Below are positions 13,492-52,523 of a DNA stretch of 64,000 nucleotides, one piece after another. The stretch is from assembly GCA_014804245.1 (NCBI GenBank), contig JAAVAE010000005.1, positions 1 through 64,000 of the forward strand, given 5' to 3'. Origin of the DNA: Lachnospiraceae bacterium. GTDB taxonomy: Bacteria > Bacillota > Clostridia > Lachnospirales > Lachnospiraceae. The position numbers were made by a program, and so were the translations under genes. The number at the start of each line of letters is the position of its first letter. Within the stretch, counting starts at the first letter, position 1. Below the pieces are notes generated by a model, which did not search any database, had not been told where the DNA came from, and saw only the letters and a list, made by a program, of their open reading frames with translations.

Positions 13492-13506
13492 AAGGAGGGG
13501 AATCAG

Positions 13507-14364
13507 ATGAAGAAGAAAAGAGTGAGTATATCATCCATTATCATATATATCCTGCTGATCTTCTGGGCATTGACGACGATTTACCCGATTATCTGGGTCA
13601 TACAGAATTCTTTTAAGGCAAAGGATAAGATTCTGGCAGATTCCTTTTCTATTCCTACAGGTGAATTGTTTACCCTTGCCAATTACAGAAAAGCATTTAA
13701 CAATTTAAATATTCTGGGAGCATATAAGAACAGCATTTTTATTTCAACGTTAGTGGCGCTTTTAGTTGTTATTCTGGCAGGGATGGCATCGTTTGCACTT
13801 GTCAGGTATTCTTTTAAGCTGAAAAAAACTTTACAATCGCTGGTAATGGCTGGTATGATGTTTCCTGTATTTGCTACGGTCATTCCGGTATTTAGCATGG
13901 AGGCCAGGTGGGGAATCGTGAACACCAGCAACTGGTGGCTTACAATGCTGTCGGTTATTTTGCCTCAGGTAGCAGGTAATCTCTCTTTTGCAATCGTGGT
14001 TCTCACAGGATTCATCAAGGGGCTTCCGGTTGAATTGGAGGAGGCAGCATTTATGGAAGGCTGCAATGCATTTCAGATTTTCTTTAAGGTAATCGTACCG
14101 ATTACAAAACCATCCTTTGCAACGGTGGCGATTTTCTCTTTCCTTTGGAGCTATAATGATTTGTTCACACAGATGTTCTATTTGAGGAGACCGGAAATGC
14201 AGGGAATTACCGTACTGCTCAATCGGCTGACTTCACAGGAAGGCACGAACTATGGTCTTATGGCAGCAGCCGTTACCCTTGTGGTGGTGCCGGTGGTAAT
14301 CGTATATATCTTCCTGCAGAAATATATTATTAAAGGCATGACGGCAGGTGCAATCAAGGGTTGA
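13507..14364 (+). CDS. Carbohydrate ABC transporter permease (MalG/UgpE type)
   Basis: VELEEAAFMEGCNAFQIFFKVIVPITKP EAA motif; C-terminal QKYIIKGMTAGAIKG. Confidence 0.93.
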   Translation: MKKKRVSISSIIIYILLIFWALTTIYPIIWVIQNSFKAKDKILADSFSIPTGELFTLANYRKAFNNLNILGAYKNSIFISTLVALLVVILAGMASFALVRYSFKLKKTLQSLVMAGMMFPVFATVIPVFSMEARWGIVNTSNWWLTMLSVILPQVAGNLSFAIVVLTGFIKGLPVELEEAAFMEGCNAFQIFFKVIVPITKPSFATVAIFSFLWSYNDLFTQMFYLRRPEMQGITVLLNRLTSQEGTNYGLMAAAVTLVVVPVVIVYIFLQKYIIKGMTAGAIKG

Positions 14365-26303: not shown

Positions 26304-26341
26304 TAATAAGTATGAGTACTTTTTAGGAGTGGCGGGAGTCC

Positions 26342-26478
26342 GCACCGGATAGGTAAATATACCAACGTCGTCGCGCTCCCGCTCCATAAAAACGTAACAG
26401 ACGCTAGGCTCGAAAGAACCTCGCCAAGCGCTGACGTTTTTATAGGGACTCCTTTTGGTATATTAACCTATCCGGTGC
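26342..26478 (-). repeat. Family-1 palindromic element, copy B (137 bp)
   Basis: Reverse complement of copy A core. Arms GCACCGGATAGGTAAATATACCAA / TTGGTATATTAACCTATCCGGTGC (one mismatch); compensatory changes relative to copy A. Confidence 0.9.
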
Positions 26479-26613
26479 TACGCTGCCAGCATCCCGGAAA
26501 GTAATGGATTACATTACATTTACTTCGTTGAGCAGTTCGTAAAGTAAATTCGTAGCCTGCAAGGTATGTATTATGTAGTGCCTGCTAATTTTCATAAGTC
26601 AGCCAGTGCACAG

Positions 26614-26750
26614 CTCTGAGAGGATAAATAATCCATAAGGAGCCCCTAAAAAAGCGTCAGCACTTAGCGAGGTTCCTCACGAGCTTAGTGCCTGTTACGC
26701 TTTTTACGGAGCGAGAGCGCGGCGACGTTGGATTATTTATCCTCTCAGAG
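26614..26750 (+). repeat. Family-1 palindromic element, copy C (137 bp)
   Basis: Perfect 22-bp arms CTCTGAGAGGATAAATAATCCA / TGGATTATTTATCCTCTCAGAG, different in sequence from A and B; shared core AAGGAGCCCCTAAAAAAGCGTCAGCACTTAGCGAGGTTC...GGAGCGAGAGCGCGGCGACG. Confidence 0.9.
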
Positions 26751-42578: not shown

Positions 42579-42902
42579 GCCCTTGGAGATAGCGTGGTGC
42601 GGTGAGAAAGTGGTGGCCGGCTTCCCTGTGGGCTGGCACATTTTATGGTTTCAAGTCTCGTCTTCAAATCGGATTTCACTAGCAGAATGGGCGGAGGTAT
42701 TTCATGGCGGACGGGTCGGAGCCAGTCGGCATCCTGCCTCGAGGCTCCTAGCCCCGCCATCCGTGGCGGGGCTCCCCTGGTATTGAACCATTCTGCAAGT
42801 GAAATTGCCGATTTTCCGCCAGAGCCTTGAAACCATAAAATGTGCCATCCCACAGGGAAGCCGACCACCACTTTCTCACCGCACCCCGCTATCCCCAAGG
42901 GC
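42579..42902 (-). repeat. Family-2 palindromic element, copy 1
   Basis: Arms of ~120 bp (GCCCTTGGAGATAGCGTGGTGCGGTGAGAAAGTGGTGGCCGGC...GTTTCAAG versus its near-perfect reverse complement) around a core matching 52119-52406 in reverse complement. Confidence 0.9.
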
Positions 42903-43017
42903 TGGATTTTCGCTGCCGCAAAGATAATAATGCAACTGTCTAAAGTAACATTTTCTGTTTTCACCTTTACTTTTCGGTTGCTTGCCGGAACTTCTTTGAG
43001 TGTCTTCCGGGTTGGAA

Positions 43018-43340
43018 GGCACCGGCGGAGCAGATATTTCCCTGGGGCGGACAGGATAAAAGTCTATGCCGGGGCCTTATGGGAAGCGATTAGAATGACT
43101 TAACAGCCCTTTCATTTCCCAGCAATCGGCGGACAGTGATGTCATCAAACGCTGCCACGCTTCGCGAGCCAGCTTATTGTGCCGAAGGCGTAATTTGACC
43201 CATGGATGGGGCAATACGCCGTTTGCGTCCGATGCCAATATCTACATAAGGGCTGTTTAGTCATTCTTATCGCTGTACATAGGATCCGAAATAGACTTTT
43301 ATTCTGTCCGCCCCAGGGAAATATCTGCTCCGCCGGTGCC
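43018..43340 (-). repeat. Family-3 palindromic element, copy 1
   Basis: Arms GGCACCGGCGGAGCAGATATTTCCCTGGGGCGGACAG... / ...CTGTCCGCCCCAGGGAAATATCTGCTCCGCCGGTGCC; core matches 51549-52048 in reverse complement. Confidence 0.9.
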
Positions 43341-43475
43341 CCTCTCTCTTACCACAACCCCATCCCATAAGACAACCCAGAACGCTAATAATGATGGAAG
43401 TTGAGCTAGAACTGTGGTATATTGAAAGAGTAAAATTTTGGTTGAAGCTTTGAGAAAGGGAAGAGGAATATTGAA

Positions 43476-51548: not shown

Positions 51549-52048
51549 GGCAAGCCTCATAGTGCGGTCTGACAGCCCTGACGCAGCCTCTGCCCTAGAG
51601 GGTAAGGGTTTAAACAGCAGTCTGGGCGCAGCGTTATTGAGATTCCGGCGGGGCAGCAGCCTCAGGGCAGTTATCCTCCTGCATCAGGTCTGGCAAAAAA
51701 CTGTTTCGAAACCTATGTACAGTGGTAAGAAGGATTAAGCAGCCCTTATGCGGGGACTGGCGCCGGACGCAACCGGCGTATTGACCCATCCATGGGTCAA
51801 ATTACGCCTTCGTCGGACATCCTGTCCGACGATTGCTGTGTACTTAAAGGGCTGCCAAATCCTTCTAACCACTTCCCATAAGGTTCCGGCACAGTTTTTT
51901 GCCAGACTTGATGCAGGAGGATAACTGCCCTGAGGCTGTTGCCCCGCCGGAATCTCAATAACGCTGCGCCCGAACTGCTGTTTGAACCCTTACCCTCTAG
52001 GGCAGAGAGGCTGCGTCAGGGCTGCTAGACCGCACTATGAGGCTTGCC
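51549..52048 (+). repeat. Family-3 palindromic element, copy 2 (500 bp)
   Basis: Arms of ~165 bp (GGCAAGCCTCATAGTGCGGTCT... / ...AGACCGCACTATGAGGCTTGCC, about ten mismatches) around core TATGTACAGTGGTAAGAAGGATTAAGCAGCCCTTATG...GGCGTATTGACCCATCCATGGGTCAAATTACGCC...AAGGGCTG. Confidence 0.9.
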
Positions 52049-52118
52049 GTTGAGGACTCGAGGCTATGATTCTAATTCCAATTCAAATTCAAATTCAGTG
52101 TTTCCTTCCGGCAGGGAG

Positions 52119-52406
52119 AGGGATGGTGGGATGATGAGGGGAAGGGGAGGCGGGGAAGCCGGGGTTAGGGTTTCAGGGCTATAGCGGAAAATCGGAAATT
52201 TCACTTACGGAATGGTACATACCCAGGGGAAAATCGCCATGGAGGGCGATTTTAGGAGCCATAAGGCAGGATGCCGTCTGGCTCCGCCCCGTCCGGTTTG
52301 AAACACCTATATCCATTCCGTTAGTGAAATCCGATTTGAAGATTAGACCTGAAACCCTAACCCCGGCTTCCCCGCCTCCCCTTCCCCTCATCATCCCACC
52401 ATCCCT
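52119..52406 (+). repeat. Family-2 palindromic element, copy 2
   Basis: Arms AGGGATGGTGGGATGATGAGGGGAAGGGGAGGCGGGGAAGCCGGGGTTAGGGTTTCAG and exact reverse complement; core GCGGAAAATCGG..TTTCACTTACGGAATGG..CCATTCCGTTAGTGAAATCCGATTTGAAGA shared with 42579-42902. Confidence 0.9.
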
Positions 52407-52523
52407 ACCCCCCGTCAGAAGACAAACTAAATTACAATGTGATGAAATAACGTGCAGAGACATTCCCATTGTTTCTTTTTTGCCATTGCGCTATACTATA
52501 GAAGGAAAAGGAGTGTATGTGTG

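Follow-up and report, generated by a model that had tools for sequence, protein, structure and literature searches.

Paired TwoAYGGAY hairpins in a Lachnospiraceae genome as copies of a probable dispersed palindromic DNA repeat

Four long hairpins in two spacers

The window, that is, the whole 64-kb stretch of DNA analyzed (64,000 nucleotides of the source genome, G000), contains four long hairpins in two spacers. Locus A, the spacer after spoVAD, holds the pair 42579-42902 and 43018-43340. Locus B, the spacer after a SpoVAC/SpoVAEB-type gene, holds the pair 51549-52048 and 52114-52411. When the 64 kb were scanned independently for palindromes, with a minimum arm length of 20 bp, the output comprised exactly these four, one short hairpin, and a second repeat in three copies. 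The features are listed below with the family labels of an earlier note on this DNA.

42579-42902, minus strand: locus A "family 2" TwoAYGGAY palindrome, core 42659-42821 (-), arms 42579-42659/42822-42902
42950-43383, no strand: approximately 434-bp stretch that has AAC at either end and includes the family 3 copy; absent from L073 in genome G047, where both flanks align to an empty site
43018-43340, plus strand: locus A "family 3" TwoAYGGAY palindrome, core 43078-43281 (+), arms 43018-43077/43281-43340
51549-52048, minus strand: locus B "family 3" TwoAYGGAY palindrome, core 51714-51880 (-), arms 51549-51714/51881-52048
51774-51832, minus strand: tip hairpins of the locus B family 3 core, about 51810-51832 and 51774-51808, with GGA-bearing loops (Rfam alignment and DNA fold)
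52114-52411, plus strand: locus B "family 2" TwoAYGGAY palindrome, core 52182-52344 (+), arms 52114-52181/52344-52411

The arms of each hairpin are almost fully complementary. They measure 81 bp (94%) in 42579-42902, 60 bp (92%) in 43018-43340, and 68 bp (96%) in 52114-52411, while 51549-52048 has inner arms of 127 bp (51588-51714/51881-52007, 94%) and outer arms of 43 bp (51549-51591/52006-52048, 95%). Single-strand DNA folding of two copies gave z-scores of -39.6 for 51549-52048 and -23.0 for the second. The two family 2 copies are mutually inverted and approximately 80% identical over 196 nt; the two family 3 copies are approximately 70% identical over 243 nt. The four hairpins and the mirror-image order of the two loci reported in the earlier note are real and far beyond chance. 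The spacers between pair members (115 and 65 bp) are unrelated, as that note also stated. Its description of the pairs as "both -" and "both +" captured the mirror image of the loci correctly, but the same-strand pairing within each locus is an artifact of its own family labels. Under a single Rfam model the members of each pair are opposite, with 42659-42821 (-) facing away from 43078-43281 (+) and 51714-51880 (-) from 52182-52344 (+), which makes both pairs divergent.

One Rfam family with two core subtypes

By sequence comparison, families 2 and 3 are two core subtypes of one family, TwoAYGGAY (RF01731), an assignment shown in the core tree. All four elements match the full model (positions 1-168) at 86-120 bits, against a gathering cut-off of 43 bits. 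The scores are 86.4 for 42579-42902, 94.1 for 43018-43340, 120.4 for 51549-52048, and 90.3 for 52114-52411. The model alignments and DNA folds recover the features that define the family, a P1 stem with two hairpins and GGA-bearing terminal loops. The repeat unit spans approximately 300-350 bp, in which a conserved core of about 168 nt, consisting of stem P1 capped by two small hairpins, lies between two long complementary arms. The core at 43078-43281 belongs to a subtype whose first hairpin is approximately 37-40 nt longer (GTGATGTCATCAAACGCTGCCACGCTTCGCG...); this subtype has at least three copies, including 43078-43281 and L047 (C15_13903).

Both hairpins and the P1 stem are common to the TwoAYGGAY RNA model (RF01731; PMC2864571) and all four elements. 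However, the Rfam entry describes a cis-regulatory RNA, whereas the elements found here form a multicopy palindromic DNA repeat, with copy-specific arms beyond the model and without the mispair pattern of an RNA. A search of the open-access literature, where TwoAYGGAY is seldom mentioned, found no description of it as a DNA repeat.

Genomic distribution

G000 contains 49 TwoAYGGAY hits in an assembly of 2.93 Mb (59 contigs, 59.7% complete). Several hits lie at contig ends; the repeats thus probably break the assembly, and 49 is a minimum. Copy number ranges from 0 to 49 per genome across the species of the genus, and scattered other genera across the class have at least several copies each. 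The cultured relative IMSAGC_005 has 7 copies. BLAST returned no match to TwoAYGGAY on plasmids or phages. The copies are intergenic, and in G000 the flanking genes occur in every arrangement (normalized to the element, 16 ++, 14 --, 10 -+, and 2 +-, from heuristic gene calls). This count reveals no fixed position or orientation relative to genes, which makes a fixed cis-regulatory role unlikely.

Divergent pairing

The earlier note interpreted loci A and B as inverted copies of a unit made of families 2 and 3. It proposed that their pairing is not coincidental, that the families move or function together, and that the copies could invert the segment at 43.3-51.5 kb. In a genome-wide adjacency count, clustering as such is confirmed but the family 2-family 3 unit is not. 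Neighboring copies in G000 are less than 1.1 kb apart in ten cases, whereas a rough, simple model based on assumed spacer lengths predicts approximately 0.9 same-spacer pairs. Such gaps number six in G047 (the genome of L073) and four in G048 (the genome of L074). Among the 20 close pairs from the three genomes, 19 are divergent, one is tandem, and none is convergent, although these pairs are partly orthologous between G047 and G000 and therefore not fully independent. For the ten pairs of G000 alone, the corresponding chance is 0.25^10, or about 1e-6. The sole tandem pair is locus B of L073, where the family 3 core is reversed.

Only 4 of 14 family 2 copies have a family 3 neighbor. Most other close pairs are family 3/family 3, and the mix approximates random pairing, with no preference of family 2 for family 3. 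The members also come and go separately. In L073 (G047), the closest relative, the family 2 copy of locus A has a counterpart at the orthologous site, and the family 3 partner is missing. L074 has a family 3 copy at locus A and neither copy at locus B, which in L074 consists of no more than a short spacer. The family 2 copy of locus B is common to L073 and absent from L074. Synteny likewise speaks against inversion of 43.3-51.5 kb, since gene order is collinear in L073, L074, L075, L080, and others. The orientation difference that was found lies inside the palindrome 51549-52048, in place of which L073 holds a different core, reversed. The mirror order of the two loci would fit a composite whose two families travel or act together and whose copies invert the intervening segment, but the separate gain and loss of members, the near-random composition of pairs, and the collinear segment in all relatives examined make it extremely unlikely, and it was rejected. 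The mirror image instead follows from the nearly invariable divergence of close pairs, under which a pair of families 2 and 3 can read only 2(-)3(+) or 3(-)2(+). On the best reading, a single dispersed palindromic repeat accounts for loci A and B, each of which is a pair of neighboring copies placed independently. The genes between more distant divergent pairs were also considered as possible cargo and rejected; by eye, their open reading frames encode ordinary cellular proteins, and no transposase was seen.

Gain, loss, and core replacement

Sixteen G000 copies are absent at orthologous G047 sites with both flanks aligned, and several G047 copies are absent from G000. This comparison relies mostly on two incomplete or draft genomes and leaves site C5_131384 out of the flank search; most cases are unpolarized, so that "absent" includes losses. 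At most of these sites the entire palindrome is the difference. One site, C35_18150, has a clear 8-bp target duplication (AATGAGTG/AATGAGCG), and elsewhere there is no duplication, one of 1-3 bp, or a small deletion. Homology to the empty site extends into the 3' arm alone at five sites. For the family 3 copy of locus A, loss in G047 is a possible explanation, because a copy also occurs at this locus in L074, which is more distantly related.

Cores can also change within persisting arms. At 51549-52048, the outer arms are common to G000 and L073, while the inner arms and core in L073 are of another subfamily. C9_40883 is a second such replacement site, with arms retained and a core of another subfamily. 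At the G000 counterpart (C7:3899) of g47_C20_79880, the arms alone remain around a tiny loop. Two further sites have unusual forms. Locus B of L075 (about 13500-13860) appears by eye to hold a relic palindrome, a family 2 stem with its own arms from which the two tip hairpins are gone. The divergent pair at L045 (G000 C15, 40733 and 41133) corresponds in G047 (C41, 31560) to one hybrid element with no complementary arms, as if the stretch between the two cores had been deleted.

Arm complementarity and concerted change

In G000 and G047, nearly every copy has arms that extend approximately 30-165 bp (mostly 60-100 bp) beyond the core and are about 90-100% complementary within the copy. Arms are mostly unlike between copies, and those of many copies match no other copy. 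Where arms are similar, the match starts at the core and proceeds outward, sometimes along the whole arm at 70-92% identity. The copies therefore lack the conserved terminal inverted repeats expected of a MITE, as their arms diverge outward.

An RNA stem should favor G-U among mispairs. The arms contain 42 G-U and 52 A-C mispairs among 3503 pairs in G000 and 39 of each among 3004 pairs in G047, a combined 81 versus 91 in about 6,500 pairs. By the same method, a TPP riboswitch control from the same genus gave 53 G-U versus 5 A-C (Fisher p 5e-10). The cores have 20 G-U versus 26 A-C mispairs, and their two hairpins have no G-U in approximately 1,100 cells, even with variation at 14 of the 20 pairs. 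Thus, relative to the TPP control, neither arms nor core display the RNA-type covariation in which G-U is tolerated above A-C. In 21 copies from other genera, where the extra arms are shorter, G-U slightly exceeds A-C (17 versus 10, a small sample), and the lack of a G-U excess is accordingly firm only for this genus.

At 15 sites common to G000 and G047, 70 arm pairs have changed on both sides and are still complementary (32 of them by transversions), and 56 have changed on one side. In these counts, as in those of mispairs, related sequences are scored as if independent. A G-U intermediate is not available to double changes by transversion. The concerted arm changes and the lack of a G-U excess over A-C together point to complementarity being kept by DNA-level copying from arm to arm and not by selection on an RNA. 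Two-sided changes would arise most simply if, while DNA is synthesized, one arm served as template for the other. Template switching at hairpins has been documented in general (PMC8794818; PMC8604942), and spacer inversion is a named outcome of it (PMC8604942). Such hairpin maintenance resembles the present case in its multi-base two-sided changes and its spacer (loop) inversion. Unlike the repeat, it is a mutation process and not an element, and in the present genomes it would be at work at dozens of sites each, on arms 60-165 bp long.

Origin and maintenance of the repeat

A structured RNA is an improbable explanation, whether it is the cis-regulator of the Rfam typing or an sRNA that sequesters CsrA through two GGA loops, as proposed in PMC4333381. 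The Rfam entry is cis-regulatory, the loops resemble the CsrA-binding motif (PMC4333381), and csrA is present in 29 of 31 genomes of the genus. However, csrA is present alike at 0 or 49 copies and was not found in G004 (49 copies, 86% complete). The CsrA decoy was rejected because csrA does not track copy number, which was compared with gene families PF01797, PF00078, and PF02599. The missing G-U excess in arms and core, the variable orientation to genes, and the gain and loss of copies between sister species also weigh against an RNA. Even so, the absent RNA signature does not prove that every copy lacks a function as a transcript.

Among DNA repeats, BIMEs are intergenic palindromes with conserved tips that often occur as inverted pairs. 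TwoAYGGAY palindromes share these traits, and G000, G004, G010, and G021 have one Y1 transposase gene each, but a REP/BIME-like system mobilized by a RAYT (IS200-type Y1) transposase is very unlikely. The search for Y1 genes was negative in G015 (98% complete, with 43-45 copies), several Y1-bearing genomes have no TwoAYGGAY copies, and none of eight Y1 loci checked has a TwoAYGGAY copy or related hairpin. The Y1 transposase was rejected as the mobilizer, as it does not correlate with copy number, and unlike REP/BIME elements, TwoAYGGAY units are approximately ten times longer with arms that are not conserved between copies. There is similarly little likelihood of a SINE-like or fold-back element that attaches to the target initially by its 3' end, after which the new strand folds back at its tip and copies the target flank. 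Such copying would give each copy its own arms, as observed, and at the five sites with homology into the 3' arm only, the 5' arm would be an inverted copy of the native flank. However, those sites are equally explained by template switching after insertion or partial deletion in G047, the whole palindrome is absent from the relative at most other sites, and arms are partly common to different copies. High-copy genomes other than G010 have RVT_1 hits, whereas G010 (34 copies, 89% complete) has none, although the gene may have been missed there. With no correlation to copy number among the genomes searched, reverse transcriptase was set aside as a likely mobilizer.

TwoAYGGAY is probably a non-coding, MITE/REP-like dispersed palindromic DNA repeat that would be mobilized in trans as a single strand, maintain its arms by template switching, and land or survive divergently. 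Patchy high copy number, intergenic sites, gain and loss, core replacement, and concerted near-perfect arms without G-U tolerance support this reading; the insertion ends and target duplications, which are inconsistent among sites, count against it. According to predicted folds, the single strand would extrude into a Y-shaped form with the P1 stem and two tip hairpins. A putative mobilizing or cleaving activity supplied in trans would recognize the conserved core as folded single-stranded DNA, and arm-to-arm copying would result from template switches across the hairpin as DNA is synthesized. New copies may land, or survive, preferentially 5' of a copy already in place, such that the two 5' ends face each other, a preference that would give divergent pairs. 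No mobilizing enzyme was found in the genus genomes, where neither the Y1 transposase nor reverse transcriptase correlates with copy number. It seems unlikely that the repeat moves in the form of a folded single strand recognized by its Y-shaped tip, rebuilds its arms by self-templated synthesis after landing, whereby each copy would acquire its own palindromic arms, and relies on an enzyme that steers new copies divergently to the 5' flank of old ones.

The repeat resembles the MITE-like ERIC and Correia/NEMIS elements in being a short, non-coding, dispersed palindrome with presence/absence variation. Unlike them, it has no fixed terminal inverted repeat, as its outer ends differ per copy, and its target duplications were not constant among the sites compared. 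Parvoviral terminal hairpins have a similar tip-on-long-stem shape, a likeness of form only.

TwoAYGGAY, which has been in Rfam for more than 10 years as a cis-regulatory RNA, thus looks like a multicopy palindromic DNA repeat in this genus. Selection on an RNA and copying between DNA arms cannot be told apart by covariation alone; a count of G-U versus A-C mispairs can help and is applicable to other orphan Rfam families. With dozens of 60-165-bp arms per genome, these sister species offer a natural system for studying the tolerance and homogenization of long palindromes in bacteria, and the near-strict divergent pairing is a directly testable rule of insertion or survival.

Other structured elements in and near the window

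A second dispersed hairpin repeat, X, occurs in the window at 170-338, 26316-26482, and 26627-26739, and is probably family 1 of the earlier note. It is approximately 110-170 nt long and has no credible Rfam match; its core is conserved, and its arms, perfect and about 23 bp long, are specific to each copy. Repeat X is also found at L058, L040, L063, L055, L049, L044, L031, L059, L037, and L243. In all three cases where it lies close to a TwoAYGGAY copy (C37_8396, C6_46624, and C57_26493), it is 5' of that copy and in the same orientation. A TPP riboswitch at G000:C5:64014-64126 starts 14 bases beyond the window end.
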